A program made the position numbers and the translations under genes. From Cenococcum geophilum 1.58 (taxonomy: Eukaryota; Ascomycota; Dothideomycetes; Gloniales; Gloniaceae): a stretch of DNA of 64,000 nt. The DNA is taken from positions 1,488,001-1,552,000 of the forward strand of contig KV748183.1 of assembly GCA_001692895.1 (NCBI GenBank), written 5' to 3'. Positions within the stretch are counted from its first letter, which is position 1; every line of letters begins with the position of its first letter. The notes beneath the pieces are model-generated. The model was given only the letters and a program-made list of their open reading frames with translations, made no database searches and was not told where the DNA came from. This document shows positions 29,191-64,000 of the stretch, piece after piece.

Positions 29191-29590
29191 CTATTAAAAA
29201 AGAAAATGGAGATCTAACTGCCGGTTTTGGAGGGTTCTGTCGCCGTTTTTAGAGGTCACATCACTAAAACTCCCCACCGCCCTAAGCCTCTTGCTTACCG
29301 GTCTAACGTTAAGCCTCTCGCTTACCGCCTTATACCCCTTACTTTTTAACAGGCAGACTATGATCCTTCTACGCGCCTAGCGCTAAAGCTATATATACTC
29401 TATAGCTCCTACCTCTAATCCGTTTAATCTAGGCCTTATTTCTCTTATTCTCTACCCTCCCATCTCCTTAACCCCACATTGCTCTTTAGATCCTTCCCAC
29501 CGTCATTACCTCCTACCATTACTACCCTAAGTTCTCTTCTAGCTCCCTAGAATGCGGCGCGCTTAATTATCAGATCACAGCTTATTATTT
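29191..29590 (+). promoter_or_regulatory. Leader region between the LINE break and the DUF3435 gene
   Basis: No gene. It holds a direct repeat of TAAGCCTCTTGCTTACCG (about 29283-29300) and TAAGCCTCTCGCTTACCG (about 29314-29331), then a TATA-like CTATATATACTCTATAG near 29388-29404. A promoter role for the downstream recombinase is inferred only from position. Confidence 0.4.
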
Positions 29591-29594
29591 AGCG

Positions 29595-32066
29595 TCACCG
29601 ACGATGAGTATATAGACACGGATAGCGACAGTGACAGCTACGGGATAGAACCGACCGTCTTTAACAGTAATACCGACAGTAATACCGATAGTAACGCCGA
29701 CTGCGACGCCGACAGTAGCATTAACTGTAACGCTAATAGCATTGCTAGATCTAACAATGCTTGCGAAGCGCCCGCTCAAGCATAGCTTTATAAGGATCAA
29801 GACCATCCACTAGAATACTACCTTAAACAGTTAGAAGAGTTTAAGGAATCCAATTTTACGACGTAGGACTATACCAATAGCAGTACGAATCTCCTTAACC
29901 ATATTAAAGATTAATAGTATTAGTAAGTAATAACCTATTCTACGGCTTTCTCTTAGGCTTAACCTAGAGCTAACGATTCCTAGATACTACACCTATATAA
30001 GGAAAGACCCCAAGAAAACGTACCAAGTCCTCTTGCTTTGGCTACTTTATAGCTTTTTTAACTAGCTCCTAAATTAGAAATAAGGGAAGGGGGGTAGGAA
30101 ATAATACGGGATAAAGCTTTCTAGCTCACTTAATATATACTAGAAGTACTATCGCCTTATATACAAAAGAGCAACCGGTAAAAAAATTGCTAGTAAATTA
30201 ACCCGCTAGATATATAAGGTAATTACATTTCTAGTTAACCCTTTAGCCTAGTAAAGTAAGGCGGAGCTAAAATATCTTTTTTAGGTACTTTGGAAACTGG
30301 CGAAGAAATATAGCTTAAGTAATAAGAAGTGAGAAAAACCCGTTATAGATATAGAGGATCTCGCCCTAGTTCTTAAGACCAACTTAGTTACAACCAGAAA
30401 GAGATATATAGTTAGGCGATATCGGATATAAGTCTATTTCTTACTATAGCTAGGCCTTTACACCGCAAGCTAACCTAAAGCTCTTCTTAACCTATGCTAC
30501 CGATATATAATAATTATACTTATTCGCGACCTAAAAGGTAGGCCTTATAAGATCGTGCTTAAGTTTACATTTAAATTTACTAAGGAATATCTTAGTATAA
30601 AAGAAGCGTATATTCCCTTTCTACCCTATTCCTCTCCTTATGCTTACGAAGAACTAGTAATACTTTCCCAATTCCTAAGATTATCTTCAACCCTTCGCTT
30701 ATTTTTAGCCCTTATGTCTTTCTCCTAGGCCTTCTTTTTGCTAATAAAGCTTTTACGGCCCCTAATCTAACGTCCGTAAAGCAGCTTAGTAAGCTATATA
30801 TTAAGCCTAGGCGTAATAAGTTACCGCTACCACTCTGTTTAGACCTAGATAATATCCCCGTATTTCAGCGATTAATTAAAACCCCCTACGGCTATAAGGT
30901 CTCACTTAACTAGCCTTTACTATACTTAACTCTTTTACCCTAGATTAAGGACCTTGGCGCAATTATAGGATTTTAGCAGGTTGCGCGCCTATATAGTCTC
31001 CGTTACGGCGCAGGTAAGGTATTTAATAAAAATAATAAGTTCTATTATATAGAGCTAGTTCTACTAAAACCTTTCTAACGCCTATACTACCTAGGTAATA
31101 TAAGTAACGCCCTCCGGAACCTAATAATGCAGCACGCCGACGCTTAAATATTCCTAAAGCACTACCTTCTACGGCGTGTTAGCGTAGATATATAGGCAAT
31201 TATTTAAGGCTTAGAGCCTTAAGAAAAGTTAATAAAAGCAGTATACTAAATAAGCCGATTAATTAACCCGTGGTAGCCATAGCACCTAATAATAGAACAA
31301 TCCTTATCGGTAAATGAGAACCCGCATATTTGTTCCTTAATTAAAGTTCGAAATAAGCTAAAGCTTAGCCTTAAGCGCAAAACCGCAGGAAGTATAGAAT
31401 ACTAAAAGTTTAGCTAAGAAATTACAAATAAAAGGCAACGTTAGAGAAATGCGCTATTAAAAAATATTAAGAAGAATTAGGACAACGAATAAGCTATAAT
31501 TAATATTAAGCGGCAACTTTCCGGGGTTATATTTAGCAAGGATATTAAAGCAACCTTAAAATCTAGTAATAATAGATCGGTTGAACATAAACGCCTTATT
31601 AAAGTAATTATAACGCTACCTAGTATATTACTAGAAGATAAGATACACAGACGCAATAATGCCATTAATGCGGTCGTAGATTACTATAATATTAAGGAAG
31701 GTAGAGCGTATCGGCCAAGTTATCGCTAGAGATAGTTTAGGATAGGTGTCGCCCTTAGCCAAGTTAAGATTAAAGAAGATACTAAGATTTTAAAAGCGGC
31801 TAAAGCGCTAGAGAGGGCAAAGTCATCCTTATATAAGGAAAAAAAACCAAAAATATGCTTTATCTACCTTAGAAATAAAAAGCTTGCAATTAGTAAGCGT
31901 ATATATAGGTTCTACACTCCAACTACTCTTACAAAGTATTTCCGATAAGCGCATCTCTCTAAACTCCTAAAGTAGGGTAAGATTAAATATAACGTTTACA
32001 AAGTAACCCTTAAGCATAAAATGCATCTTTAGAACTATGCGTATAGTATATATAAGACCTTTTCCT
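29595..32066 (+). pseudogene. DUF3435 tyrosine recombinase (Starship captain/Crypton-like), RIP-degraded
   Basis: DUF3435 proteins are fungal tyrosine recombinases; those that head Starship elements (captains) excise and integrate the whole element. Visible in order: an acidic DTDSDSDS-type N-terminus (29610-29720); a DHPLEYYLKQLEEFKESNF segment (about 29805-29850) typical of the family; a core helix equivalent near 30430-30480 (TAS.PKALLNLCYR in the RIP form); the box II equivalent YSLRYGAGK (about 30992-31018); the HAD..FLKHYLLRR segment with the expected tyrosine near 31162; the ESLSVNEN motif near 31300; the QAIINIKRQLSG and RRNNAINAVVDYY motifs (31490-31690); and a C-terminal C2H2-like finger (about 31855-32060). 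Numerous stop codons, mostly TAG and TAA, make it a relic. The start is not fixed. Its orientation, with a LINE broken just upstream, suits a left-border captain. Confidence 0.8.
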
Positions 32067-32192
32067 AGTTATTACGCGCTTATCTTATTATTCTTTACCA
32101 CTTTTTATTTTATTTTAGTTTATTATTATTTAATCCTATTCTAGTATTTAGTAGAATAGATATAATGACTAGGATTCTATAATTCGTCTAGG

Positions 32193-32300
32193 GGGGCAAG
32201 GGGTAATAGGTAAGGTAAGGGTAAGGTGAGAGTGAGGTAAGGGTAAGGTAAGGGTAAGGTAAAGGATAAGGTAAAGGATGAGATAAAGGGTGGGGTAAGG
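32193..32300 (+). repeat. GGTAAGG-type short tandem repeat
   Basis: Irregular alternation of GGTAAGG and GTAAGGGTAAGGT, about 100 bp. It resembles but is not the fungal telomere repeat (TTAGGG). Confidence 0.7.
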
Positions 32301-33124
32301 GGTGGTTATATACTTTACCTTAGGTAAACTAGTTTTGGTAAGAAGCTGTTAGAGTTTAAATTCTATATAGATAATATAGCTCCAACCCGTAAGTAAATAA
32401 GGGGAAAATTATACCCGTTCCGATTAGCATATAACCACATATAATAGCAAGCTAAGGTAAAACTAGAAAGCTTAATTAGAGATTGCTCTAAAGCGGACTG
32501 ATTTAAAACGGACTACTTAAGCCTATAAGCGAGAGAGGCGTTATAGGCTAAGAAACGACTTAGGAATATAATACTAATTAAACTTTGCCTAATGTGGCTT
32601 AATAGAGTATAGAGCCTTAATCTAAGCCACGGGAACGTATTACCCTATTATATAACCACTAACAATAGGGCACAACGCTAGGTAGACTATCCCACTATAG
32701 GTTTAGGGGGGACACCCTAAGAGGATATTTCCACTCTAAATAGCACTAGAGTGAAATTAGTCTTAGGGTAATGCTTTTAGGCGGCAAGACCGCATACTTT
32801 TTATAGCCGGCATATTTTTTACAGGCCGCTATTACTAGCACCTAGCTCCTAGGAGTTTAAAGCTCCTAAGACACTATTTTTAGGACCTAAAACTTCCTAG
32901 CTCCTTAGAGCTTAATCCTAAGGGGCTATCCCTAGGACCTAAAGACTCCTAGGAACTTAATAGGTATAGAAAGTACAAGGAGAATACCAGGCGCATTATC
33001 CTAGAGTGCCTAAATCTAGCCCTTACTAAATTTAGTCTTCTATTTTTAGGAGGCGAATTTTATAAGGCGTCTAAAACGGGCACTTAAAGCCTTAACAGTT
33101 GTTAGCGAAACTAGCTTCGCCTAT
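32301..33124. other. Non-coding interval with inverted and CCTAG-rich repeats
   Basis: No gene recognised. At 32713-32768 there is an imperfect inverted repeat (CCCTAAGAGG...CACTCTA and TAGAGTG...CTTAGGG) around an 8-base loop. At about 32850-32960 short CTCCTAGGA, TAGGACCTAAA and AGCTCCTTAG words recur in both orientations. Confidence 0.45.
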
Positions 33125-34259: not shown

Positions 34260-37200
34260 AAGTCTAGAAGTATTTGCTTACTTTAACTAATACCCGATAA
34301 AGATAAGACTGCCCCTATCCAATACCGGCTCTTTAACTACCCTCTATAGGAATTAGGTAAAGGGGCTCATCTATATAAGGCTTTATCCTATATATAGGGT
34401 AATCCAGATAAGACTCTACCTATTTTTATAAACGAGCATTACTTTAACATCACCGTAAACCTTTACGCGGCGCTATTATATCTTTAGAACCGCTCTTTTA
34501 AACGAATTATATAGGTAGATACTGTTTGCATTAACCAAAAATATAAGTAAGAGAAAGAACTCTAGATTTAGTTTATAGCGAAGATCTACGGTTAAGTAAG
34601 CCGTATAATTATTTGGCTTAAAGAGACGGCAGATAATAGCGATTAAGCGCTTAAAGAAATACGCGTTACTCTAGGCAAGAAATCTATAAATTCTTTAAAT
34701 AACGAAAAGATCCTACATGCGATTCTCGCGCTGCTTCGGCGGCCGTGGTTTCGGCGTATCTAGGTAAGGTAGTAGGCGCTCGATAACATTCGTAGGAATT
34801 ACTAAAAAGTTAGTCTAGGTAATTTAGGAAGTTGCCGTAGCTTGATAAGTCCTAATTATATATAGTTTCACGGAGATTAACGGATACGCCTTCTGCTTAG
34901 GCTTGGACTTTTTATAAGATTTTTATAGAGATCGCCTAGACTTATAGGGTCCAATCTATTTAGTAACTTACCTAATAAGGGGAGCAATCTTCCGGCCTAA
35001 GTACATAATAAGTAGAGCGGGTAGGGTTTCTCTAGATATATACCCTCTAGGTGAGCTAATTGATATATACTATACCTATAAAGCTACTAATCACTATAAT
35101 AAGGTGTATGCCTTACTCGGCATAAGCTTAGATAATCTTAGCGAAGCTAGCTTATTACCTAACTACGGGGTTCCATAGAAGGAAGTCTTATAGCGACTTA
35201 TTAAATTTCTTCTCTATAAATAGGTGTTTGTGGAGACTTAGGACTATAAAGAAATATTAGTAATTAAAAGTAGGGGCTATGTTATTGACTAGGTATCTTT
35301 AGTAGAGAGAACCTAGGATAACAGACAGAATGTAAATATTATTTTTAAGAATATACCGGAATACCTAGGATATAATAAAGAATGGGAGACTTAATAAACT
35401 CTCTAGGCCTTAGCGAAATCCGTCTAAAACGGTGACCTTGTCTGTCTTCTTTAAGGAGCTTTAAAACCTATAATTATCCGACTATATAAGGATCATTTTG
35501 CGGTTATTATAATAGTAGCTACTCCTCCGGAGGCTATAAGAATGAAAAGTAGAAGTGTTAGACTGCTAGGGCTTTCCCAATTAATAAGAGACTTCCTATA
35601 TAACTTTCTACTTCTCTAGAATTGGGAAATATCCCTAGGGCAGTTACAAAATGGAGGAGAATACGAAACCTTAATAGAAAGAAATAGTTTAGTAACGGAG
35701 CATTTAAAGAGAGATTTAGATAGAGCGACTAGATTATTATATGTAGCGCTAGTATTAAAAGACTTAGAAGAGTATAGGGGGGTAAAATAGAGGCTTCGAG
35801 AAGCAATATAGGGCTTTAAGAGGGCGGTTAGAAAAGAGTATCTACATACGCTAATAGGCAAGGATAACCTCGCGTTACTATATAAGTAAAAAAAGCAATT
35901 AAAGGACGTAGAGGAGTTGTTTATGCAAGTAATATGTATAAGAAAGTGGGTATAAGGGCTAGCCCATCTAGATACGTTAAACAGTATAGCCAACCTTGCG
36001 TTAACCTATAGAGATTAAGGATATTTAGAGAAGGCAAAAAAGTAGGAGATGATAGTATATATACTTAACCGAGGAGCAGATAACGTATAGAGTATAAAAG
36101 AAAAGGCGGTCTAAATTGCAGGATTATTTGATAAAGAAGTAATAATACTTCTACTTAAGCGAGAAGGGGGCAAGGTCCAGATTATAGAAGAGGTGGTAAA
36201 GGCGGTAGTAGGGAATAATAAAAGTGGAAAAGAAGTAATAATGCTTTTACTTAAATAAAGAGGGGGCGAGGTCCAGATTATAGAAGAGGTGGTATTCTAG
36301 ATTGCAATAAGATTTAATAAAGAAGTAATAATACTTCTACTTAAGTAAAGAGGGGGCGAGGTTTAGATTATAGAAGAGATAGTAAAGGCGGCGGCAGGGA
36401 ATAGTAAGAGTGAAAAAGAAGTAATGATGCTTCTATTTGAGTAAAGAGGGGGCGAGGTCCAGATTACAGAAGAGGTAGTATTCTAGATTATAATAAGATT
36501 TAATAAAAAAGTAATAATGCTTCTACTTGAGTAAAGAGGGGGCAAGGTTTAGATTATAAAAGAGGTAGTAAAGGCGGTGGCAGGGAATAGTAAGAGTAAA
36601 AAAAAAGTAATAATACTTTTATTTAAGCAAAGAGGGGGCAAGGTCTAGATTATAGAAAAGGTAGTAGTCTAGATTGCAACAAGATTTAATAAAGAAGTAA
36701 TAATGCTTCTACTTAAGCGAAGAGGGGGCGAGGTTTAGATTATAGAAGAGGTGGTAAAGGCGGCGGCAGGGAATAGTAAGAGTGAAAAAGAAGTAATGAT
36801 GCTTCTACTTAAGCAAAGAGGGGGCGAGGTCTAAATTATAAAGGAGGTAGTAAAGGCGGCGGCAGGGAATAGTAAGAGTGAAAAAGAAGTAATAATACTT
36901 CTACTTAAGTAAAGAGGGGGCGAGGTTCAGATTATAGAAGAGGTGGTATTCTAGATTGCAACAAGATTTAATAAAGAAGTAATAATGCTTTTACTTAAGC
37001 GAAGAGGGGATAAGGTCTAGATTATAGAAGAGGCGGTAGTTTAGATTGCAACAAGATTTAATAAAGAAGTAATAATGCTTTTACTTAAGCGAAGAGGGGA
37101 TAAGGTCCAGATTATAGAAGAGGTAGTAGTTTAGATTGTAATAAGATTTAATAAAGAAGTAATGATACTTCTACTTAAGTAAAGAGGGGGCGAGGTTTAG

Positions 37201-38862
37201 ATTATAGTAAAGAGGGGCGAGGTTTAGATTATAGAAAAGGTAGTATTCCAGATTGCAACAAGATTTAATAAAGAAGTAATAATACTTCTACTTAAGCGAA
37301 GAGGGGGCGAGGTTTAGATTATAGAAGAGGTAGTAAAGGCGGCGGCAGGGAATAGTTAGAGTAGAAAAGATATAATAATGCTTCTACTTAAGTAAAGAGG
37401 GGGTAAGGTTTAGATTATAGAAGAGGCGGTAGTCTAGATTGCAACAAGATTTGATAAAGAAGTAATAATACTTTTACTTAAGCGAAGAAGGGATAAGGTC
37501 TAGATTATAGAAGAGGTAATAGTTTAAATTGCAACAAGATTTAATAAAGAAGTAATGATACTTCTACTTAAGCGAAGAGGGGGTAAGGTTTAGATTATAA
37601 AAGAGGTAGTAAAGGCGGCGGCAGGGAATAGTAAGAGTAGAAAAGAAGTAATAATGCTTCTACTTAAGTAAAGAGGGGGCGAGGTCCAGATTATAGAAGA
37701 GGTAGTATTCTAAATTGCAACAAGATTTAATAAAAAAGTAATAATACTTCTACTTAAGCGAAGAGGGGGCGAGGTTTAGATTATAGAAGAGGTAGTAAAG
37801 GCGGCGGCAGGGAATTAAGGAAGTGAAAAAGAAGTAATAATACTTCTACTTAAGTAAGAAGGGGGCGAGGTCTAGATTATAGAAGAGGCAGTAGTCTAGG
37901 TTGCAATAAGATTTAATAAAGAGGTAGTAGTGCTTCTATTTAAGCGAAAAGGGGGTAAGGTCTAGATTATAGAAGAGGTAGTAAAGGCGGCAGTAGGGAA
38001 TAGTTAGTGTAAAAAAGAAGTAATAATGCTTCTACTTAAGCAAAGAGGGGGCGAGGTTTAAATTATAGAAGAGGTAGTAAAGGCAGCGGTAGGGAATAGT
38101 AAGAGTAGAAAAAAAGTAATAATACTTCTACTTAAGTGAAGAGGGGGCAAGGTCTAGATTATAGAAGAGGTGGTAAAGGCAATAGTAGGGAATAGTATAA
38201 GTAGAAAAAAAGTAATAATGCTTCTGCTTAAGCGAAGAGGGGGCGAGGTCTAGATTATAGAAGAGGTAGTAAAGGCGGCAGCAGGGAATAGTTGGAGTGG
38301 AAAAAAAGTAATAATACTTCTACTTAAGTAAAGAGGGGGCGAGGTCCAGATTATAGAAGAGGCGGTAGTCTAGATTGCAATAAGATTTAATAAAGAAGTA
38401 ATAATACTTCTACTTAAGTAAAGAGGGGACAAGGTCCAGATTATAGAAGAGGTAGTAAAGGCGGTAGTAGGGAATAGTTAGAGTAAAAAAGAAGTAATAA
38501 TGCTTCTACTTAAGCGAAGAGGGGGCGAGGTTTAGATTATAGAAGAGGTAGTAAAGGCAGCGGTAGGGAATAGTAAGAGTAAAAAAAAAGTAATAATGCT
38601 TCTACTTAAGCGAAGAGGGGGCGAGGTCTAGATTATAGAAGAGGCGGTAGTCTAAATTATAATAAGATTTAATAAAGAAGTAATAATGCTTCTACTTAAG
38701 CGAAGAGGGGGCGAGGTCTAGATTATAGAAGAGGCGGTAGTCCAGATTGCAATAAGATTTAATAAAGAAGTAATAATGCTTCTACTTAAGCGAAGAGGGG
38801 GCAAGGTCTAAAAGAGGTAATATTTTAGATTATAATAAGATTAAATAAAGATAGGTAATTAC
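34260..38862 (+). pseudogene. HET-domain/TPR protein with about 30 tandem repeats, RIP-degraded
   Basis: HET-domain proteins trigger cell death when genetically different fungal strains fuse, and many belong to the fungal NLR-like repertoire. A HET domain (about 34360-35300) shows KALSYI.GNPDKTLPIFIN, VDTVCIN, the IYG..SRIIIWLKE and LLRRPWF motifs. A middle region (35300-35690) contains GYNKEWET and the LLQGALKP-like segment. Kinesin-light-chain-type TPRs follow at about 35760-36050 (LAHLDTLNSIANLALTYRD). From 36110 to 38862 a 30-32-codon unit repeats in one phase, with core KEVIMLLLK.RGGEVQIIEEVVKAA; two unit types alternate (KAAAGN and QIATRFN). I know the same repeat from Aspergillus and Penicillium NLR-like proteins. 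There are many RIP stops, so it is not functional. The start codon is not determined. Confidence 0.8.
36110..38862 (+). repeat. Coding tandem array of 90-96 bp units, about 30 copies
   Basis: Units of 90, 93 and 96 bp, all multiples of three, share GAAGTAATAATGCTTCTACT and GAGGTCTAGATTATAGAAGA. Differences between units are almost all C/T or G/A. Frame is kept through the whole array, showing that expansion happened while the protein was still under selection or very recently before decay. Confidence 0.85.
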
Positions 38863-39160
38863 AGAATTTTATATTTTTAGGTAGTAATAACACTGGCTTC
38901 TAGCTAGGCTATAACTATAGCTTAATTAGCGGGTTTACCCTTATAAAAGGCAGCTAATTATTATTAGTCTATAAACGTAAAGCTAAAATTGGTATTACTA
39001 GGGAACCTCAGAGGCGCAATAAAACATTTAATAGTGTCTTTACATCTTTTAAATAATACTTCTTATCCTTAGCCTAGATATATTACTAAATAAGTATATA
39101 ACCGCGTAAGTATACTTATAAGTGATATCTAACGATAATAAGCATAAAATATCGCCACCG
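38863..39160. other. Interval without a recognised gene
   Basis: About 300 bp of AT-rich sequence. A CAGCTAATTATTATTAG-like word and its neighbours carry no coding signal that I could support. Confidence 0.4.
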
Positions 39161-39200
39161 CTAGTAGAGAGGGCGGCCGACCCGCTCTAGCTATACCCTT
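39161..39200 (+). repeat. Hairpin motif copy 3
   Basis: CTAGTAGAGAGGGCGGCC followed by GACCCGCTCTAGCTATACCC. It starts a block of about 500 bp that is homologous to 54079-54640. Confidence 0.6.
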
Positions 39201-39402
39201 ATTAAGGGTCTACTTCCTAGGGAACTATAGTTAGTATTATTTTAAGTATGGCGTTATAGCGGTAATACACTACCTCTGCTATTTGGCGTTTAGCTTAGCG
39301 CGGTTATTAAGTTAACTAAACTATGCCAAAACCTAACTAGTCCTTAAGATAACTACCGTTTAACTTTAGGATATAGCCCATCTTATGCTATAACATACGG
39401 CT

Positions 39403-39790
39403 ATGTTTATATCGCAGCCTCCTCTAAAAGAATCTCAGCATATTATACTACCTTTAAGCTTTATAGGCGCGCCTTTAACGCCTTCGCCAACTGATGAGAA
39501 AGCCTTCACCTAAGCTCCCCAAGTTATTGCGCTTCTTAGAGACACAGCAATTAAAATCCATAGATATCCTTTTAGCTTATATAAGGGGAATATAATAAGA
39601 TAGAGCGTCGGCTTAGGCAAGATGAGTCGCTATTTAGGTTTATTAAGGACAAGATACGGTATATAGCCTCCGGCGGGGAAGAGGCACTAGCTAATAATGC
39701 CAGTTAAACAGATATAGCTAACAGCAGGAGGAATTAACTTATTATTCGTATACCTACTTAGCTACACTAAAGTAGAGCGCTTTTGAGCTT
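39403..39790 (+). pseudogene. Fragment of a fungal nuclease-like (restriction-endonuclease-fold type) protein, copy A
   Basis: ATG at 39403. The N-terminus reads MFISQPPLKESQ, then PLSFIGAPLTPSPTDEKAF, as in a widespread family of fungal hypothetical proteins. Family members continue with FQLAEGEYDRIERxLxQDE and a PD-(D/E)XK-like core. Here the matching segments are about 39565-39660 (EYNKIERRLRQDESLFRFIKDKIRY in parts, shifted in frame) and RIPTQLH near 39747, after which the match is lost. It is thus a 5' fragment. The name of the fold is from memory of the family, not from residues visible here. A second copy lies at 54347. Confidence 0.5.
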
Positions 39791-41840
39791 CTATATAAAT
39801 AAAGGCTTTATAGTAATAGGTAAAAGAGCTAGATAAAGGGCGGTATCCGGAGCGTATATATTTATTATCTCGCTACTAAATTAGCAGTTTATGCTATATA
39901 AGCTCGCTTAAAGGCATATTCTAGGCACTATCCTCTTAGTAGAGGCATCTATAGGAAAATATCCTCTTAGGATGCCCCCACTAAGCCTATAGTAGAATGG
40001 CCTGCTTAGCGCCCCTGCTTTATTTTATTTATAGAATACTATCACTTTCGCTGCGTTTTGGACATTGACTTATAGGTAGTATTACTAGATATTAATGTCT
40101 GAGATATAAAAGGATCTATATTTACTAGTTGGTGACGCCTATAAGGCTACTACTTAATATCTTAAAGCCTTACCACAGGCACCTTAAAATGGAATAGTTT
40201 AAATATCTAAGTGCATTTTCTTACTATATACAGCTGTTTTTATGCATCTTTGCTGCTAACACATCTGCACTAATATATATAAATCCAGCCTCATTTAAGT
40301 AGAGATAAGTATTAATAGTTTATATACCTACTAAAGTCCACTTTCCTTAGCTCTGTTCCATACTAATAGCTTTAAGAAATATTACTCTGTAAAAGGCTAT
40401 AAAACTATAAATTCCTATAAAAGAAGAGCCAGCATTCTGCCTTAAATTTATAAAATTATTCCTTACTATCTATAAAAAGCGGCTAACTCGTCTCTAAAGG
40501 TATACTATATATATTTAGAAAACACTCTTATATAGTTGCGGTTACTTTTACTCTAATAAGTGTACGCGTAAGTATAATACGGCTAAACAAAACGGCGTAT
40601 AGTATGCGGAAAATAATCTAAATAATATCTAGAATACGAGGACATTACAGGGTATATATAGCTATGATTTAGAGTATAGGACACCGGAATTGATATAATA
40701 AGCCTTTTAAAATTAGAAGTGCCTAATATAGCACTCTTTATTCATAGTTATAAATATAGCCAAGTTAAATAAAACCTTAGTTTCTTTTTAAATTCCTTTA
40801 GCTTTAAACAGAAAAACTTAAGAACATTATTTCTTAACTCTATCTCTTAAATTACTGTATATTTACGATTAATGCTTTATTATATTATTCCGGCCAATGT
40901 CTTCTACCTCTAATAGACATTTCCCCTTCTTAGGCTTTAAACGGTTCTTTCTTAACTTAGTATTATTAGCCAAATGTCCATTAAAGAAGCCTTTAATTAA
41001 AAGTACTTATAGCGGCTTTAAATTCTTGCCAGACATCTCGGGAGGTACTAGCGTTTACTATTTATATATAAATAGGGTGATCTCTAGGTCTATATCCGCG
41101 CCAGTTTTTAATATATCTAAAAGGAACCTCTAGCTTTGGTTAGTATTTATAAATTACTTTTAGTTAGTCGTTAATACGCCCTAAGAGTTTCGTATCTTTA
41201 AGAGTGTATACTATAAGTGTGCCACTTTAGAGGCGCAATTATAGAAGTTGGAGATATATATCCTCGCCGGGCTTAAAGCAATTAAGTAGTATCGTAATAT
41301 TTACAAGACTATACATTGTAGCAAAATGGCGAGGCTTGTTCCCTTTCTTATTAAGTATAGCGGTTAGACTAGAAATAAGGCTATTAAGCGCTATATTAAG
41401 ATCGGGGCCAATACAAATAAGAGTAACTAGAGCAAGCGTAAAGATAAGATGAGAATGCCCATTAAGAAGACATTCTAGATTTATTTAGACTTAAGATGCC
41501 ATAAAAGCAATCAGGCGGAGTGGAGAGTTATTAGTAGAATTTCCTATCGCTTAAATAATTAGCATTGCTGCTTAACTTAGGGCCGAGCGCTAAAGAGGAG
41601 GCAATGATGTTAAGGAGGTTTGGGGGGTCGAGTAGACCTTAAAAATTAAGTACCTAATTTTAGGCGTAAATAAAAGACTTTTTTAGGTCAGTCAGATGCT
41701 CCCTTAGTCATTGCTTATTATAAGGAGTGAGGTACATATTTTATTATCCTGGCCCTATACGCGGCGTAGCGTAGTATAGCACCTAGCTTAGTGTTCCTTA
41801 GGCGTGCGAAGCCTTATACTTTACCATATCTCTAATCTTT
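39791..41840. other. RIP-degraded interval, possible reverse-strand coding remains
   Basis: No family recognised. A reverse-strand frame around 41300-40800 reads plausibly (YIKNWRGYRPRDHPIYI, STSRDVWQEFKAAISTF) between TAG/TAA codons. A 78-codon forward open frame at 40897-41130 overlaps it and has no recognisable match. Neither is strong enough to call a gene. Confidence 0.25.
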
Positions 41841-41849
41841 TATTCTTTT

Positions 41850-44060
41850 ACTACCATCTACACTGTTCATAGTTCCTCTATAGTAATTGTATTAAAAAAT
41901 AAAGGTAGGAATAGGCAATTAAGATTAGTTCTTCTAGGATTAAGAGCCTCCTAGAAGCCCTAAATACAATACCTATTAAATTTATCTTTGCGTAAAGTTT
42001 ATAAATAGACATAGTAAGAGCTATATTAAGCTTTTTAGTTATAATAATCTATATATATAATTAACACACATCCCTATACACTGCAAAAATCTACGTTAAT
42101 ATTTACCCATCTAGTTCTAGGTATTCTATTAAACCTAGCAAATTAAATAGCTCCTCCTTTACAAGGGATCCATCCGTATCCTTAAGCATATATTTTCTCT
42201 CTAGAATTAGTCCTGAGAGGAGATTAAGAAAGTAAGTTATCTATTAACTACATTTATAGAGAAAACCACCACGTTCTTTATCTAAAATATTAATAAGCAA
42301 TTTAAAATCATCTACTGGAAGTCTTTTAATACTATAGGAAGTTAGCCTAGTATAGATTCTGCTAGCAGGAAGGAAGCTTACTCGCGGTTATAAATACCAA
42401 AATCACTATTAGTTAGAACTAAAGCAAGGATACTAGTACCAAATTGAGCTGCTAGTATATACCAGTTGCGTCCCTAACTAAGTCTATTTTTTAGGGTAGT
42501 TAGTTATTTATTATACTTAACTATATACCTTATAAGTTTAAGATACGCCTAGAATAGCATATTGTCTAGAGCGTGGGAAGTAGCCTAGCCGTAATGACCT
42601 AGTTCCGATATTCGCTCTTTATTCCGCTGACGTCTAGTTTACCGGACTAGTTAAAGCCGGTAATTCTGTTCTAGCCGCGTATAAGCTTCCACCAATCCAA
42701 TTAGGTGGAATTGCTTTATAACAAACGCTATAGTAAGTAAGACATTTAATTAATCTAGAGACTTTATGTTTACGAATACTGTATTACTAAAAGAAAGAAT
42801 AACTGTACTTATATTCTCCTAAATAGTAAGATAGGAATTCCGTAGCTATATAAAAGCATTTTAGCTAGCAACCGCGAAGAATAAGCAAGTAAGGAGCCAG
42901 AGCCTATTAGAATTATCTAATAAGCTACGGTTAGTAAAGGTTTAATATATCTCTATTAACGGAAATTTGCAGTTATAAATAGGTAGAATCTCCTTTAGAG
43001 TTTATTTCTGTAGCCTCTTAACCTTATAAAAGTGTTAATTGTTAACTTTTCGTTTGCTTTAAAGCCGCTCTAATATCGTCCTTCCAGACCTAGTAATCGC
43101 TGTGTTTAGTGTTTTGGTAGGCTTAGCTCGCTATAATTGCTTTTTATTCGCAGGCAATTATGCTCCTTCTTTTTAGTATATTTTGCTTTACGGTTTAGGA
43201 TCGCATCTAATAAGAGAGACGTCTTTTATACATTCTTCTATTATATTATCCCGTCCGTAAATATTATCTAACTCTGCCTTATCCTGCCCCTCTTTATGCG
43301 CCTATGTTTGGTCGTCCCGCCTTATATATTAGAGATCATAGTTAATTAGTTATTAAGGCTCTTTACGGTATTGCTTGTCTACCTAAGACAGTAACTATTC
43401 TTTCTCTCCTTTCTAGTTATCTATACAATTATAGGGTTAATTACTAAAACTTTACTGCAATATCTCCGCACTTTGGATTAATAAGTTTATAGCTACGAAG
43501 GGGAACTAGTTTTCCGTATAAAATAAAGGGTGTTAAAGAGAAGGCGCGGGAGACTTTTAGGGGGTCGTGTTAACGCCTTAAGATGGCGTTAAATCACCGT
43601 TATAAGAGGAAAACTAATTAGCAGTGCTTGCCTTGGTTTGTTTAGCTAGCTCACCTATAGGTAAAGGGGATAAGCTAGAAGCCAAAAGGAGCTTACTAGG
43701 ATCGATGAAATCACTATTATAATTCTGTAAATCTTCTTTAAATAAGTCTCTAATAGTAATATAGCATATAGCTATAGAATTAATAGCTACGGAAAGCATA
43801 AGCGCCTAATTATAGATTAGCTAGGAATACTTTAGATTTGTATCTAAGAGCCAGTTAAGCTTAAAGCAGACATTATATTAAAGGATCGTAAGTTCCTATA
43901 AATAGCTACATTAGTTATAAAAATTAAACGCGAAGGGGAAGTAAAGAAGGCATATATTTTTTATCTTGGCACTAATAGTATTAATTAGTATGCCTTAAGT
44001 CGGTTTGTTATAAGTAAGGGGATTATAGTTTAAAGGCGGACACTACGCTTATGCGTGTAA
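41850..44060 (-). pseudogene. Unrecognised RIP-degraded gene, one frame traceable for about 2 kb
   Basis: On the reverse strand a single reading frame stays coding-like over long distances, broken mainly by TAG/TAA, as expected from CAG/CAA under RIP. Landmarks: CFKLNWLLDTNLKYS and LASSLSPLPIGELAKQ (about 43870-43630, with an intact 61-codon stretch from an ATG at 43799), a glutamine/lysine-rich charged segment (43400-43150) with CIKDVSLIRCDPKP, ITRSGRTILERL near 43080, and NWYILAAQFGTSILALVLTNSD near 42450. Further down, KNVVVFSINVVNR and RMDPL near 42160 lie in the same region. I do not recognise the family. No transmembrane or catalytic motif is evident. It lies among HET/NLR-type relics and may be cargo of the same region. 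Confidence 0.4.
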
Positions 44061-48105: not shown

Positions 48106-48199
48106 GTTTGCGTATTAATGTAGGCTATATATTTAATATTTCCCCTAATTATCCTTTTTAAGTTTTAGTAATTAGGATATATACCTAAGGGCACTAGAC

Positions 48200-49900: not shown

Positions 49901-50440
49901 TATTTAAGGTAGATAAAGAGAGTAAAATACTTTAGGCTCGCCGCTACTTATAAGGAGGGCAGCTAACCCGCTCCAGCCACGCCCTTATTTAAAAGTCGTT
50001 TAATTTTTAACGCGAATAAAGAGAGAAGTTAGTATTTAAACGCGCTTTTTGCCACAGAATGGTATACAAAGGTAAAGGTTGGTAGGGTAGATGCTAAGAG
50101 TTTTTAATGGCGGGGTAAATGCCAGCTAAAATTAGATAAGGATCTTTATAAGGGAACTTTAGAGTAAAAAATTTATTTCGCAATCCCTAAATACGTGGCG
50201 CACTCTCTATAAATTGGCTAGTTTAAATAAGGGACCTACCATAAGCGAAGCCTAGCGACGCGAATACTACCCTTTTTTATATTCGTCTTTATTACGGAGT
50301 CTATTATATTAATAAAGCGTCCGTAATCCCTTAGGTCACACATTTAGCGGTTTTTTATCTTCCTATAGGCGTAGTTGCCTTATCGCTACAGGGCATACTA
50401 ACTAGTATTTATACCTTATTAACAGTAGAAAATAAATTAA
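49901..50440. other. Interval without a recognised gene
   Basis: Contains hairpin motif copy 5 at its left end and otherwise only RIP-mutated sequence. Confidence 0.35.
49945..49990 (+). repeat. Hairpin motif copy 5
   Basis: TTATAAGGAGGGCAGCTAAC followed by CCGCTCCAGCCACGCCC; the GGCAGCT/AACCCGCTCC core follows the consensus. Confidence 0.55.
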
Positions 50441-50449
50441 CGCTTGATT

Positions 50450-51750
50450 TTCGCATGCTATCTTATTACATTTAATGCGATTTTAACTTCAATTAAATAT
50501 AGTGTTAAGGTTATATAATTTAAGCCCTTCTAACTCGCTTCCTGAGTAACGGTTATTTAAAACTCTCGTATAAGGCCAAGCTTATTATTACTATTACCGT
50601 TATAGACCATATTCGCGCCTAGGTTAATACTATCCTATTATCTTTAGGGAACTTTAAAGAACCTATACGTTAAATTTCCCCTTAATCTTATCTTAAACGA
50701 ATGTATTGCTCTCTAAACTCCTATTAATAAGTCCGCCCTAGACCTAACCCATTATCGCAATTATCCGCGGTTAACTCTTTTAAGATAGGCTCTATTATTA
50801 ACGCCTCTTCTATTACTTTACTTAACTCAAATATTAAGAAATTTAGAGAAAGACTATCTTAAGAAATGTTAAGTATAGTGTATATACGCGGATAATAAGA
50901 TTAGGTTAAGAACAGAACGGTAGTTAATATAGTACTAAAAAATTTCGGTATTAACAGTGCTAGTATTCCACCCTAGGCAAACGGCCCCTATAGCTATATT
51001 AAGAAAATATATACCAGTAGTAGCTACTAATAGATAGCCCAGACTAGTTTAATAAATAACTATATATTAACCTGTAGTGTAATAGAAAAATTAATTTACT
51101 AAGCTACTATTCTATTTTGCCTAACTAATAAACCTTGCTTTCTAGTTCTTTAAAGATAGCGGACTAAGTGTCTTTAATAAGCTCTTTATATTCCTTAAGG
51201 CATTCTCTAGTAAATATAATATTACCTATAGACCTATACTAGTGCTAGCTCTAGTCTATATAAGTACGCCTTTAATATATAACGCAACGTCTATTATTTT
51301 TATCACAATAGTAGATATATATATTTTCAAAGTATATATAAAGCTAAAGATATCCTGGCCCATATACTTAAATATAGCCCAGTTATAAGCACCTAATTAA
51401 GCCGCCTAACTAATCTGTTTATTAAGCTCTTTATAACACTTACTACAACTTTATAAAGGGAGCTCTAGTGCTATAAATTCGGCATTTATTATAGTTAATA
51501 TCTAAGCAAGCTTTTCTAATGCCGTATTAAGGGCTTTAAGCAGTTCTATAAGTTTAGGTATAGGGCTTTAGCTTAAAAGGCCTCTAGCTATAAGGTATAG
51601 CGATTAACTTAACTAAAGAGTAGATATTACTAGGTCCGCTAAATTAGAAGTATTTTTTATTAAACCTATTATTTTATCACTTGTTATATATTAAGATAGG
51701 GTATAACTTGCTAGATTTACCGCATTAAGCTATATATATAAAGCACGCTC
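50450..51750 (-). pseudogene. HeLo-like / fungal STAND N-terminal domain protein, RIP-degraded
   Basis: Reverse strand. The frame reads KIIGLIKNTSNLADLVISTL (about 51680-51620), then SQSPIPKLIELLKALNTALE-type helices. The hallmark LPLQSCSKCYKELNKQIS...NWAIFKYMGQDI lies at about 51490-51340, where stops stand at glutamine positions. This matches the N-terminal helical domain that caps many fungal STAND/NLR proteins and acts as a membrane-directed cell-death or signalling module (HeLo-like, Pfam Helo_like_N group). A C-terminal part includes LSKVIEEALIIEPILKEL and NGLGLGRTY (about 50820-50740). No NACHT or NB-ARC P-loop follows, so it resembles the stand-alone forms. It is broken many times. 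Start not fixed. Confidence 0.65.
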
Positions 51751-53480
51751 TTATCTTTAATTATCGCATTATTTAGGCCAGACTGCCATAAGAATAAGTC
51801 ACACTAGACACAGAGATAGCAAGTATAGAAGCCACGAGAATAGCTAGTAGGGTTAAGCAGGGTTATAGTATAGATCTATACCTATTAAGAGCGAATAGGA
51901 ATGTATATATTTGGCGTAAATAACATTCTATAGGCTAGATAATTAAAAGATACAGCCATCCTAAGAATACTATGGCTGTAGTATAAATAGACCTTCTATA
52001 TACTACTAAGTTGCGATAATAAATTAAGCAGCTCTAGGAAGCGATGCCGAAATATAAAGTAGTAGAAGGGTTTATAAAGACGTAGGTTATATAATTGTGT
52101 TTTTTAGGTATAGCTACAGCAAAAACTTATTTAGTAGATATAAAGTAAAAAATATGTTATAACTACCTACGTGCCACACGAATAATTAAGAGCCCCTTTT
52201 ATAGCCTATCCTAAGTTAGCCTAATTAGAAAGCCTACCAGGCGCTGCTCTATTATAGCTTAAGGCTAGTATATACTAAGGGTCTTACTACTCTTCGTTAT
52301 AAAAGGTTTTAAAGGCCACAAATTATACCAACTCAAAACCTAAATTGGTACCCTTTACTAATGTAATACCTCAATAACAGTAAGGCGCAAGCCTAGGCAT
52401 ATAATTACTATTACCTAAGTAATCTAGTTAGCTGTTCCCTTAATTTTAGTCATAAAGTGCCTTTTATTATTATTTAAAAAGATTAGAGGACGTTAGTATT
52501 ATAAAGCGACACTATTCTTCTAACTTAGATAAATCGCTAGATAAACTAGCGTAGTTTAAATAAGCGTATTTAAACAGGAGGATCCTTACGTGAAACTATT
52601 ATATAGTAAAGCATTATATAACTAAGCGCTCCTTACAGCTAGGCGTTCCCCTTTATTAATAATTCTCTCAATCCACTTATGGGTTTCTTAAGACTATACA
52701 GCATATCAAAACCATTGTCCCGCGTTATTTAAGTAGTACGTCTTAGCTTAATTAGCTGTAATCTAGATTAACGCTTTAAGACGCTTCAAAAACAACAAGG
52801 AAAGGAAAATTATAAGCTGTAATGCTACGTTTTAATAGTTAAAGGAATGATAAATACTGTTGTACTAAATTTAGACTTTCTCTGTAACCTTAGGGCTAGC
52901 ATTATAAATAGGATTATAGTAGTTTTAATAAGGGTCGTTTAGGCTAGTGACAAAACGCCTAAGACCGACGGCCAATAGCAGAAGGAAAAACTGCGAAAGT
53001 AGGATGCTTCGAGGCATTGTACGATAAATTTACTATTGCTAAAGTAAGAGACGTCTATAAGGAGATTGTTTACACAATCGGTGCATTTATAAATCTCCTA
53101 AGTTGGGGAGACAGCGCGTCTTTAAACCATGACGTAGTAAGGTAGCTTTATTAAGCTACCTAGAGTCAGCCGCGCTACGCTACACCCTTTAAGCTAAACT
53201 TTTAATTGTAAAAGCAAAGCAAAGTTCAAAACGCTCCGCGCAGCCAGTAAATATTATATTGCCCCCACCACAATTCTATATCTATAGCGATTTAAAAGTA
53301 GTCCTAAATAGCTTTATAAGCTTATCTCGCATATCTTTATATTCTATATCCAACAGCTATAGATAACGGGTTCAACCTTAACACGCTTTTACTTAAGAAC
53401 TTTAAGCTTATCTTAAGCGTTATAGCTAGTGAAGATAACAGCCTCTAAATAGAGCTATATATATACTATACTATATTAAA
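51751..53480. other. Interval with no named gene, some hairpins
   Basis: No family recognised in 1.7 kb. Two clear hairpins: GGAGATTGTTTACACAATC with AAATCTCC at about 53059-53100, and GGTAGCTTTATTAAGCTACC at about 53141-53160. The segment 52970-53260 is less AT-rich than its surroundings and may be less RIP-affected. Confidence 0.4.
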
Positions 53481-53489
53481 ATTAGAGCT

Positions 53490-53810
53490 GTTCTAGCGCT
53501 AGGGACCTTAAAGAAGCGATTAAGAAGGGGAAGCGGGCTGTTATAAAGATATAAGAAGAGTATAAAGCCTTTATAGGGAGGCTAAATAACCTAAGGGTTA
53601 TACTTAAAAGACAATATACACGTATAGGAAAGATAGAGAACCTTAAAGAGGCTATCCAAGTGGCGTGGTAGGCAGCCAACGTTACGCCTAAAGACCATCT
53701 AGATCTTATAGCTATATTAAGTGGCCTAGATTACAAGAAATTTTAGTAAGGAAATAATGGCACTTCTACTTAATTAAAGAGGGGGCGACGTCCTAATTAC
53801 TAAATTCTAA
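53490..53810 (+). pseudogene. TPR-protein C-terminal fragment with one EVM-type repeat
   Basis: Forward strand: ARDLKEAIKKGKRAVIKI, then a 40-residue TPR unit Y.RIGKIENLKEAIQVAW followed by TPKDHLDLIAILSGLDYKKF. This is the common fungal NLR/CHAT-type TPR (consensus DLEEAI..AR.AV..TPEDHPDRA). It then continues SKEIMALLLN.RGGDVLIT, the same repeat core that forms the array at 36.1-38.9 kb. The upstream part of the gene is not recognised. It links two of the region's relics to one protein family. Confidence 0.6.
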
Positions 53811-54890: not shown

Positions 54891-54899
54891 AATAAAGAA

Positions 54900-56020: not shown

Positions 56021-56169
56021 AGGTAAGTAATAGTTAGTAAGAGCCGAGAGAGGTAAAAGTCGTAAGGGAGGTAAAATAAGAGTAAGATAATGGCTGTAAG
56101 GAGGGTTTTTATAAGCATTAAAGGTGATATAGAACTTTAGGAAGTAGGACAAAGCTTTGCAAAAATATT

Positions 56170-57600: not shown

Positions 57601-57699
57601 GCCCGAGAAGACTATATATATTAGCGCCGGCTTCTACACCAAACTTATTAGCCCTTTCCCCTATATAGCTAATATTACACCTAAAGTCTACTACGTAGT

Positions 57700-59340: not shown

Positions 59341-61554
59341 GCTAGCCAGCCCAGCCTCTTCCTCTTCTATAAATATGCGACTTTAATTATAACCCTAGGG
59401 TATTATACATTATTATGCCAAAATAAAGCGTCTGGCTTATATTTTGACTTTATACTAGGCGGAATATCATTAAGTAGAAAATATATCTTAGTTAATTAGG
59501 CTAGGCGCACTTTCCGCGCAAAAAGGGCTGCCCTATCTAATCCGCTGCGAATCACTTTTAGCTAACTTCAAAACCAATATATCTCATAATTACGCTCTCA
59601 TATTAATTATAGTGTTAAATTTTTTAACTTAGTCTAAGTATAATAGTTATATTATTGGCCTAAAATCTTAGGTCAGAAAAGAAGAATAAGGACTTTCTCT
59701 ATTAAATATAGCTCTAGGGCCTCTATATATATATAAGGAAGGTATAAAAACCTAGGGGGGGGGGAAGTAGTAACTAAAATAGGTAGAATAAAAGGGGTAG
59801 GCAACCAAAACAAATCCGATCCTAGTCGACATATATATATCCCTAGCCTTAGGTAGGATTAGACTGCTTTACCAATCTCCCAGATATCTTTCTAGAAATG
59901 ATTTGCCTCTCTCTATCTCTATTTAAAGGAACTCTTCTACTAAGGTAATTAAGTACGTCTTATTCCTTATTAAGGTGGGTATATACTTACTAGGATAAGC
60001 TAATAAAACTAAAGGAATAGTAAAGGGGTTAATAAAGGGATTGGCCTATATAGCGTGCGGGTATAAATATATTGGGAATATAATATCTGGCGTAGCCTAG
60101 CTATAGTTACCTAGCTCCTCCGCGGAGGATAATTCGTTAAGTCCCCCTAAATATTTAATTAAGATGCTTTCCTTATTAACTTCTTCTTCTTTATTGCTAT
60201 TTCTAAAGTCTTAACCTTTATACTTATAATCCTTATTCCTCTCTCTACATATACTATATAGATAAGCTCCATTATAACGTGCTTTAGATCTCCGGCAAGT
60301 AAGGTAGGTAGTTCGTTTCCGGCCAGTATATCGCCTTATATTTAAAGTAATAGGCTCCGCGTTAGGTTAAGAGCCGTTAATAGAAGTTTCTTTAGGAGTT
60401 AAAGGACACTGCTAAGAAAGAGAAGATTTAGTAAAAGAGTTAGTAAATTTACCGTCCGTAAAATACTATATATCCGTAGAATATACCGCATTCTATATTG
60501 GTTTTAGTAACTACTTTAGGCCCTTATCTAGCAGCACTAAAAGTTCTTAATTTAGATTTTAAGAATTTTATAAACTGTATTTCTTTATTTTATTTTTAGA
60601 GGCTCCTTTTTTTTCTAATAAGCTTTAAAGCTTCTTATTCTCTTCTAATAGGCGCTTAACTTTTCTTTTAAGGTCTTTAATTAATTCTCTCTGGCGTTGG
60701 CAAAAACGGGCTTAGTTTATACGCTTACGTTCCCGTAATTTCTATAGGCAAAACTTAGCATTAGATTATATTAATTAATTAAATAGATATTTACCTTAGC
60801 CGTCTCTAGCATGGCAATATAGCAGCTGGATATTAAAAGGGGCTATATTAAAGATTCTCGCGAAAGAGAGAGAAACGGCAGCAGTATATAAGTGTTTTAC
60901 TTCTAATATCCTTAGGGGAGGGAGTATAGGTTATATACTTAAAATGTAGAAATATATAGAATTAAAGATATAGACCACTAAGAGGAGGTGGGATATAAAG
61001 TTTCTACGTATCAACGTGGCGCTAATACTAATATTATATATATAAGATAGTAGAAGAATAAAATATAAAAAGTTGAAAAGATAGACTATTAGGGAGCGGA
61101 CTGCTAAGCTAAGCCTTTAGAAGTTTTTAAGAGTCCTATATCTAGGAAACGCTATATAGGTAAAAGGAGCGAGTGAGGAAAAAAGGCTATATTAATTACC
61201 TGTAATACTTATAGGGAACACGCGTTATACTTATTGCTATTATTTAGAGTATATATACTCCTAAATTGTTTTAGTTTTAAAACGGCTTATCTTCTTAAAT
61301 AGGCAATAAGCTTTGGGGATAAATCTAATTAGCTCCTACTAAGCCTATTAAATAATTATATTAAAGGCTTATAGAATATAGAGAGTTATAGAACAAGGCT
61401 TAGGTTATCTAACCTTAAGGATCTCCCGCAATTCGGCTTAGATTATATCCAGGATAATATTAAGAGGAAAGAAAGTAATATTAGCTTCTTAATTAGCTCT
61501 CGTCTAAACTATAGCGGAACCCTAAATAGTTTAGTAGCTTATAGTAACTACTAA
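59341..61554. other. Interval with unrecognised coding-like remains
   Basis: A G-run (GGGGGGGGG) lies at 59756-59764. On the reverse strand, 60770-60540 reads as a basic, coiled-coil-like tract (LRERKRIN.ARFCQRQRELI followed by KRKVKRLLEENKKL-type residues in neighbouring frames). No family could be assigned and no gene boundaries are supported. Confidence 0.3.
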
Positions 61555-61555
61555 A

Positions 61556-61690
61556 TGCTAGACGCCTTCGCACCGCAACCACTAAATTATAGACGCCTTC
61601 GCATTACGACTACTAAATTATAGATACTTCCGCACCAGGACTACTAAATTATAAACGCTTTATACCGTAAGCACTAGTATAAAGAGCCCT
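61556..61690 (+). repeat. Four-unit tandem repeat of about 36 bp
   Basis: Units carry CTAAATTATAGACGCCTTCG and a CACCGCAACCA-type second half; the last unit is the most diverged. Confidence 0.75.
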
Positions 61691-62930
61691 ATATTAAGAT
61701 CTAATCCAATTATAATATGCGTACTAGATTTAATAGTATTAGTAATAGATCCGGTAGCTCGAGATAGTGAAAAGGATATACTTATTACTTATCTAGTATT
61801 TGTCCAGAGGGCCCTATATAGTATTACGTAATACAAGCTCCTATATAAATACTTTATTAATTTCTAGCACTCTTTAGTAGCAACGGGGATCTTAGGTACC
61901 CTACTTTTCTAACGCTTAAAGTAATATACACTCTTTTAATTGGTAATCCTTTTTATTTAAGAATAAAATGCTTAAATTTATTGCTTTTATTTAATATCCT
62001 TTAATATCTATTCCCTTCTATTTGCTACTAGTAATATATAATTATACCTAGGTTCACTATAAGTGTTTTTATCTTTGCTATACCATAAGAGCTTAGTATA
62101 CAAAATACCAGAAGACGTAAAAAAAATATTTAGTAAACGTTGTTGTAATATAAGAGTAAACACTTAAGCCATTAATACATAACTAATTTTCTATTATAGT
62201 AAATACAGGCTTAATAAAAACTGTGGTGCGCCTCTATAGGTCTATACAGAGGCCTAAGAAGCTTATATAAGAATTTCTTCTAGGTGACTGCAAATATATA
62301 TTAAACTAAGAGGCTTACTTAAATATGTATAAGAAGGTAAAAGAGGAAATAATTTAACGAATATAAAGGGGGCTGCGCATTACTGGCAAAGGGCGTATAC
62401 AATTCTCTTCTTCGTAAATACACTGTAAATAAGCATTTAGGGTAGAGAAACTAAACTATCTCTAATAAAGCATTTGATGTGTTCCAAACCTAGCGATAAG
62501 TAATAGTTATATTGTATATCCGGCCCGAACGAAACTTGCTTTAAAACGGCCCCTAAACAATAAGACCTTAGATATAGGCTAGGTAAACCTTAGCATATAT
62601 ACTTATAACGTTCTACTAACCGCCCGTCCGTTAAATATATTTGATAGCTTTTAAATGGAATAGCGGTAAATAGCTCTTTGTACACTATAGACGGTATATA
62701 CACTAATATTTATAAAGAAACTAATTTATACAATAAATACATCTATAAAAACATCTCTACCTTACCCCCGACGTGCTAAACGTCGATATCCATTAAAGAG
62801 AAAAGATACCGACCTATAATACCGTTCATTTATATTATACAAAGATCTCACTACGCGAGTTAGTGTTTTAGAGGAGATGTTTAGGCTATCGCCTATAATA
62901 TAAGTGGACGAAGCCGCCTTTATCAAGGCC
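61691..62930. other. Interval without a recognised gene
   Basis: AT-rich, RIP-mutated sequence. I see no repeat, RNA gene or coding signal that I can support. Confidence 0.35.
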
Positions 62931-63470
62931 GTTACCGGTCATATTCTCGCCCTTAAGCATTATATAGGAGCTAGACATTTTCGACCCCCAAAGACAAAAG
63001 GAGAGTGGGATTGTCCTATTAAAGATTATAACAGAAATTACTAGCGTCTAGATTTATATCATAAGCATATTAAAACTTTAGAGGGGTTTAAGCATAAGAT
63101 TCTAAGGCATTATCTTAACTAGGATACGTATCTACTGTACAGCCACTAATTTAACTCTCCTACTGGTCTTCTTTAATATAAGCGGAAAGTTTATAGTATA
63201 GAAGCTTTATTACGGACTTAAATATTTACGCCATTTATAACGTATATTAAGAAGAGTATATTATAAGATTATATTATTTTAGAAATGCTTATAGAGATAT
63301 AAACTCGCAACCGGCGGAGGCTAATAATCAAATAAAATAAACGGAAGACTCTACTATTTATACGCCTTATACAAACTCGCCAAAACCTAGCTTTAATAGC
63401 GGTGGCTAAGGAGAATCTATTTCTCTAAGCGCTAAAATAGGCCCCTTAACTTTAAAAGCCGAAGACAGTA
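62931..63470 (+). pseudogene. Unrecognised coding remnant
   Basis: One frame reads HIKTLEGFKHKILRHYL, then NSPTGLL, the IEALLRT.IFTPFITYIKKS segment, and IILEMLIEI, between about 63057 and 63300 with few stops (TAG/TAA). It looks like a genuine alpha-helical protein segment, but I do not recognise the family. Start and end are not defined. Confidence 0.35.
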
Positions 63471-64000
63471 CTTAGATACCTATTCCAACGTCTTTTATAG
63501 AAGGAGACTTTGAATTCGCTATAGCACTAAGCACTGCACCACGTATAATTAAACCTAAAGCACTAAAAGGTAAAAGGGTATTTAAGTTCTCTATAGCACC
63601 GAGCGCTGCTAAAGAGGGCTTTAGATTTACTATAGATCTATAAACTAATTTTTCTATTAGACCTAAAGTTAGAAGGGATTTTAAGTTAGGGTTATTAAGT
63701 GCCGCTATAGGTAGGTTTAGTAGAAATAGTATTAAAAGGGATTTTAGATATATAGCTCTATATATAGAGTTTCCGGTAGGTAAACTGGGGGGTTATAGTA
63801 AAGGGATTTTTAAATTTAGGATGGAATCTTACGCCGCTATATTTGGAGCGGGCTAGGGTTACTAGTTATAGCTTTAGGACTCTTAATAAAGAGATTAGAT
63901 AAAATATATTTTAAATAATATAAACTAGTTACGTCTTACTACCTATTAAGTGGGCTTATTTCTATTCTATATATAATAAATTACCATTACTTTCCCTTCT
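63471..64000 (+). other. Coding-like repetitive tail at the window edge
   Basis: A frame from about 63500 to 63830 contains a loosely repeated AIALSTAPRI.KPKALKGKR and SIAPSAAKEGFRFTID motif with phenylalanine-glycine and lysine-rich periodicity. It may be the end of the preceding remnant. Too short and too degraded to classify, and the window ends here. Confidence 0.25.

Follow-up and report, generated by a model that had tools for sequence, protein, structure and literature searches.

The subject of this analysis is a 64,000-base window of the Cenococcum geophilum 1.58 genome (C8:1488001-1552000), the right-hand part of which, positions 29191-64000, is in all probability the leading 34.8 kb of a transposon of Starship-like type whose full length, judging by sequence comparison, is about 54 kb or more. 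It is best read as one RIP-killed copy (RIP, repeat-induced point mutation) of a high-copy Starship-like family, an element that is ordinary in kind and unusual in its copy number and mosaic subfamilies. The comparisons were made within one genome only (177 Mb in 162 contigs), where the 5' module that carries the captain, a tyrosine recombinase of the DUF3435 family, occupies at least 40 loci, window included (40 of 191 candidates were scored), 30 of which were fetched for alignment. Related sequence, mostly 84-93% identical, occurs at other places in the genome for about three-quarters of 29191-64000. Below, C with a number denotes a contig, L with a number a fetched piece or copy, and ds a position in the 20 kb beyond the window (C8:1552001-1572000, pieces L040 and L041).

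The left border lies at the junction 29190/29191, where a long interspersed nuclear element (LINE) stops and the 3.1 kb recombinase module begins. Two uncut LINEs cross the corresponding point, one within the window (7341-8720, running on past 8720) and the other in L039, so that the LINE is indeed cut in mid-course. The LINE is present in at least 40 genome places, the window's copy included, and 38 of the 40 align to within 2 bases of the junction, the sequence past it having been read for the window's 8720 copy and L039. On the other side, BLAST aligns the 29 other fetched copies to the window's module from 29179-29189 on; the start of the module is constant in all 30, the flanks are mostly different and nothing further left is common to them. 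The bases immediately before the module follow a strong consensus (T in 26, T in 27, T in 28, A in 28, C in 29 and T in 29 of the 30 copies), after which the module's own first bases read CYATTAAAAAAGAAAATGGAG, with minor variants in L011, L016, L018, L036 and others. The module opens with inverted arms, CTCYATT and AATGGAG, flanking an A-rich spacer, and these could be recombinase binding sites. Left-side empty sites were found in six cases, namely the LINE, in its intact copies, and the targets of L011, L018, L016, L032 and L020, the last being weaker (79% over 58 bases). The first-pass annotation had placed a transposon border at 29.19 kb with the LINE as insertion target, and both proposals are borne out by the constant module start and by the intact LINEs that serve as empty sites. 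A search with the target-site continuation from L031 gave no match on C11, its results being swamped by repeats.

The genome also holds other captain types. L001 and L006 are 83% identical over 3.1 kb and have a left-end motif of their own, also seen in L007 (56-84 bases), which in L001 reads TTTACTACCTTAAACAATCAGACGG. A copy of this motif in the flank of L026 likewise has TTTACT ahead of it, which suggests that this second type of captain inserts at the same target. At 76-80% identity, the left flanks of L020 and L037 resemble ds 4452-5485 in the window's copy, which would fit insertion of family members into one another.

The captain itself is a pseudogene, recognised as PF11917 in two frames: profile positions 1-96 match in one (E 6.6e-15), while the other (E 4.3e-77) carries two stretches, 86-210 and 212-418, placed at 30656-31684. 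The first domain match lies about 1.16 kb past the left end, and DUF3435 is the first recognisable gene, in keeping with the earlier claim of a DUF3435 relic that faces into the region in a captain-first layout. Within the two later stretches there are 8 TAG and 7 TAA stops. When compared by eye with the better preserved relatives L001 and L005, the window's captain keeps the motifs SLRYGAG and KHYL and a C-terminal end resembling the zinc-finger-like end of L005, and has a stop at the codon aligned to the first-box arginine of L001; this arginine and the two motifs we take to be the catalytic residues of the recombinase. With so many stops in the frame, including the one at the presumed first catalytic arginine, the copy looks dead.

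The agent of this decay is RIP, as had been proposed, and the window shows it heavily. In seven of the eight stretches measured, five of which lie from 29191 on, TpA/ApT is 1.5-1.8 and (CpA+TpG)/(ApC+GpT) is 0.40-0.62, the values for the stretch 1-4000 being 1.21 and 0.91, respectively. Divergence between copies is mostly by transitions: the window differs from L010 by 267 transitions and 1 transversion in 2899 bases, and from the other 28 copies by 251-360 transitions and 5-48 transversions.

The captain module ends, as seen by eye, in a GGTAAG-type tract (about 32190-32310), and it is at or beside this tract (32220-32308) that nearly all copies part from the window, L023 doing so at 32127. 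Sorting by pairwise alignment ends, judged by eye, divides the 30 copies into subfamily A (4, window included), whose members continue past the tract, subfamily B (18, with L029 diverging early), subfamily C (6) and two singles. Subfamilies B and C begin with the left end seen in A, and their interiors are different or shorter; in subfamily C the captain leads directly into a section that is found at about ds 18980 in the window's copy. Within this last subfamily the copies on C9 and C52 share 90% identity over their first 12.5 kb, and those on C5, C6 and C45 match C9, with insertions, over the following 10 kb, which together make the C9 element at least 22.5 kb long.

The window's own copy extends well beyond the window. 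The limit of 64000 given to the region by the first-pass annotation is the window edge only, for similarity to other copies reaches 19.4-20 kb further, to about ds 20000, save for a 6.7 kb interruption, and it is this reach that gives the element its length of at least about 54 kb (54-55 kb overall). Among the places scored, the first part of the downstream sequence matches the subfamily A copies on C1 and C3 and the B copy L011 on C25, and also C6 (captain at 1191267), C3:1217111 (captain at 1227524) and C12:1603028-1610581. The order captain, 5.2 kb element with inverted ends, 3' section recurs on the same strand at C1 and C3, and is kept in part at C11, where a 1 kb piece of the 5.2 kb element stands between captain and 3' module. 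This conserved module, 2.57 kb long (ds 5505-8050), occurs at 39 further places among the matches listed, a count collapsed by hand from 69 rows, and lies downstream, on the same strand and within 60 kb, of 8 of the 39 other captains (C19, C63, C3, C29, C9, C11 twice and C1). The three control arrangements gave 1, 0 and 0, the single case being on the opposite strand and none upstream. Against 0.26 expected, the 8 have a P of 1.8e-10 under a uniform model, which takes no account of repeat clustering and is restricted to the top matches scored in both lists. In the window's contig similarity breaks at about ds 8050 and is back at ds 14770, from where L063 and L064 are 84-90% identical as far as their pieces go (ds 19288 and 19364), L062 (77-79%) and subfamily C copies (75-77%) continuing to ds 20000. 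The interruption itself (L040:8050 to L041:4770) has a similar junction in L029 (74%), and may for that reason be an inherited insertion or an alternative module. Neither ds 501-5492 nor ds 15001-19992 has a Pfam match.

Could the same observations arise from something other than one large transposon? A segmental duplication of heterochromatin that happened to hold a DUF3435 gene, without any transposition, would explain why the left flanks of L020 and L037 agree in register over 1.4 kb and why L015, L022 and L036 have a common flank. Apart from these and 66 bases in L010 and L028, however, the 30 flanks show no pairwise match that keeps register with the junction, and with the constant module start and the six empty sites this account is refuted for most of the fetched copies and hardly credible as a whole. 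A short recombinase transposon of about 3.1 kb, with a captain alone and followed by ordinary repeats that recur by chance, would fit the near-universal end of the module by the GGTAAG tract, after which the classes split, and solo DUF3435 genes are common (PMC12134995). Yet downstream DNA is colinear for at least 12.5 kb within classes although the left flanks differ, and the 3' module is enriched on the captain's strand downstream of it, which leaves the short transposon very unlikely.

Two abutting or nested elements, such that an A element stops short of 59.57 kb and a B-type tail follows, would accommodate the match of 59570-64000 to a section only about 2 kb after the captain module in the B copy on C25, and the want of a captain directly ahead of 59570 in the window. 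Such an arrangement is unlikely, given that the A captain, the 5.2 kb element and the same 3' section also follow one another on one strand at C1 and C3.

A single Starship-like element has its own difficulties, and these weigh against it together. The cargo is common to the copies only in part: the HET-TPR segment described below is missing from the C3 copy (33710 being joined to 39337) and is not shown in the C1 and C11 copies, in C1 the PigL_N segment lies at another place and in the opposite orientation, and the 3' section is only 75-79% identical to L062 and the subfamily C copies. Searched against the PDB, the best preserved captain relative gave 0 matches. The remainder of the LINE, expected past the right edge by the first-pass annotation, is absent by blastn from the next 20 contiguous kb and from 20 samples of 210 bases spread over 1576-1611 kb of the contig (1.5-4 kb apart, with the 4 kb after 1572 kb outside coverage); it may have been lost, lie farther away or have been split off by rearrangement. 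None of these samples, all past ds 24000, matched the C9 copy, so that, if the window's element still has its terminal part, that part is unlike subfamily C. Finally, none of the copies yielded a right end, a terminal inverted repeat or a direct repeat on the right-hand side, the search having covered the 20 kb past the window, four other copies in their right parts, a motif scan over 28 kb in the C9 copy and the 20 contig samples.

Three of those 20 samples match other repeats or flanks (L072, L074 and L075), and a scan of 48 kb of downstream DNA for the left-end motif, with no chance control, gave 18 of 25 bases at best. Two candidate right ends were rejected, L040:8073 because all 20 fetched right-module copies run past it, and L040:3053 because 8 listed copies cross it. 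A 350-base repeat at L068:2093-2441, with more than 20 other places in the genome, is possibly a short interspersed element.

The single Starship-like element remains the preferred reading, and its history can be outlined conditionally. The captain recombinase would have mobilised the whole element in one piece through site-specific recombination, inserting at TTTACT-type sites, here inside a LINE; the family would then have multiplied and been mutated by RIP, and its copies would now vary through nested insertion, internal deletion and exchange between copies.

One of the questions raised by such a family is whether captains and cargoes have travelled together. In a tree of the captain module under purine/pyrimidine coding neither the A nor the B copies grouped. 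A single transversion separates the window's captain from that of L010, and 5-10 separate it from those of L011 and L013-L016 (subfamily B); for L012 and L017, which belong to subfamily A, the count is 27. The captains of subfamily C stand together in the tree, joined by L023, whose cargo differs. When 17 B copies were compared, L029 being dropped, L014, L027 and L030-L032 were found to have in common one purine/pyrimidine site and an identically bounded deletion of about 103 bases; they belong to three captain clades, and this suggests that captain and cargo have reassorted. Against this, L026 and L036 are together in both captain and cargo, there are conflicting sites within the captain module itself, and a repeated deletion at the same place could also account for the pattern. 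A transversion comparison for a swap of A cargo between captains had too few sites in the A segment to decide, and the correlation of captain and cargo distances (0.14 over 153 pairs) was set aside because L029 distorts it. At C12:1596074-1610670 a DUF3435 gene stands 2.2 kb ahead of the 3' section seen in subfamilies A and B, and its match to the Pfam profile (1-210) follows the pattern of L006 and L007, unlike the window's family; from coordinates and match pattern, a captain swap is possible at this locus. The broader proposal, that a Starship family has turned into a high-copy repeat whose captains and cargoes reassort at the minisatellite junction about 3.1 kb in, with another captain type at C12, is tentative, and we give it a little less than even weight; its high-copy part draws on the 40 loci, at least 12 of which span more than 10 kb, and its captain type at C12 on the match pattern only.

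The interior of the window's copy (Table 1) was scanned with Pfam outside 36063-39209 and 44202-48989. The HET relic that had been noticed earlier is confirmed at about 34374-34760. A TPR/NLR-like relic had also been proposed, and of this there is a TPR_10 match on the border of a 2.7 kb tandem array, though a weak one under its cut-off; HET domain and array together make a possible HET-TPR, NLR-like gene. The earlier HeLo-like relic corresponds to PigL_N, which we take to be HeLo-like. A nuclease-like relic, by contrast with these, was not recovered, there being no Pfam match for nuclease, FRE or PLP in the stretches scanned, and no Pfam family at E<=0.1 in six frames of 54010-64000. The earlier impression of only one solo long terminal repeat and one hAT relic is misleading in view of how much of the region is repeated elsewhere, including the 5.2 kb element. 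The inverted ends of the latter measure 70 bases and are 70% complementary, its orientation relative to the captain is the same at C1 and C3, and six frames of 39210-44201 gave no Pfam match and no recognisable transposase domain.

Table 1. Features at and to the right of the insertion site, in window coordinates.
Feature	Position	Strand	Evidence or remark
LINE 5' part, insertion target, cut at 29190	27859..29190	+	83% identity to window LINE 7341-8720
Target site at left junction	29186..29191	+	window TATACT; family majority TTTACT
Conserved 5' captain module, sharp left end	29191..32308	+	at least 40 loci; 29 other copies aligned
DUF3435 tyrosine recombinase (captain) pseudogene	30351..31684	+ (facing inward)	Pfam PF11917, two frames
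Subfamily A segment	32309..33713	+	among 30 fetched copies, common (whole or part) to L010, L012 and L017 only
HET domain pseudogene, then tandem array	34374..38851	+	Pfam HET E 2e-16, TPR_10 E 0.0049
5.2 kb DNA element with inverted ends	39152..44412		many genome copies
67-base satellite, about 40 units	45177..48107		tandem repeat inside element
Repeated segment with PigL_N relic	49951..53559	-	PigL_N about 51181-51651, Pfam E 1.5e-11
Segment common to two other places (C88, C27) among those scored	54036..59572		sequence match
Start of 3' section common with subfamily B; runs on past window	59570..64000	+	sequence match

How does this element compare with those already described? Crypton DNA transposons are also tyrosine recombinase elements, a few kb long and without cargo. 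The present element is not short, and its recombinase does not stand without cargo. The Crypton recombinase is only very distantly related to captains (PMC12134995). The features of a Starship that are present here are an inward-facing DUF3435 recombinase first at the 5' end, a precise left end with a specific target (30 of 30 copies and six left-side empty sites), a size above 15 kb (22.5 kb colinear in the C9 copy and about 54 kb in the window's), and accessory genes of Starship type, HET and PigL_N in the window and DUF3723 (E 2e-49 and 4e-29) in the C9 copy only, where Pkinase_fungal (E 9e-55) is found as well. The Starship-like nature first proposed is thus upheld by a TTAC-type target, by HET and PigL_N cargo and by DUF3723 in a sister subfamily. 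The closest parallel in these terms is with Starships of Hephaestus-type targets, which likewise have an inward DUF3435 captain first, more than 15 kb of length, NLR-like and DUF3723 cargo, a TTAC-type target (the TTAC part being what was compared) and insertion into other transposons. What differs here is the presence of at least 40 captain-module loci in one genome, the heavy RIP, the target TATACT at the window's site, and a right end and direct repeats that were not found.

Starships measure about 20-700 kb and the canonical Hephaestus target is TTAC(N7)A, curated elements have terminal inverted repeats in 18 of 20 cases and direct repeats in 19 of 20, Aspergillus fumigatus Starships show no copy number variation, and the starfish tool requires a well-resolved empty site to bound an element (all PMC12153272); Gaeumannomyces Starships measure 34-688 kb (PMC11905480). 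In the Starship regions of Verticillium dahliae the RIP signature is absent from most transposons (PMC12289983). Limos and other ATTAC-flanked Starships, with ATTAC repeats and RIP-affected copies (PMC12257634), resemble the present family, by description, in the (A)TTAC border and in RIP-affected copies that differ mostly by transitions, and RIP is also noted in Gaeumannomyces elements (PMC12134995), so that RIP-mutated Starships are already in print. Among the open-access papers that the literature searches listed, none describes a comparable high-copy family in its title or in the opening of its abstract.

The significance of the family lies in the dozens of RIP-mutated relatives with a common left end that are gathered in one genome, for this left end, together with empty sites in other transposons, offers a way to read Starship history without recourse to other isolates. 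Captain swapping has been posed as a question (PMC12134995), and if the high-copy, reassorting reading is true that question becomes testable in this genome. Should the conflict between captain and cargo hold, it would provide direct material on the swapping of Starship captains or cargoes, and would suggest that giant elements can become a bulk repeat fraction of a large fungal genome.

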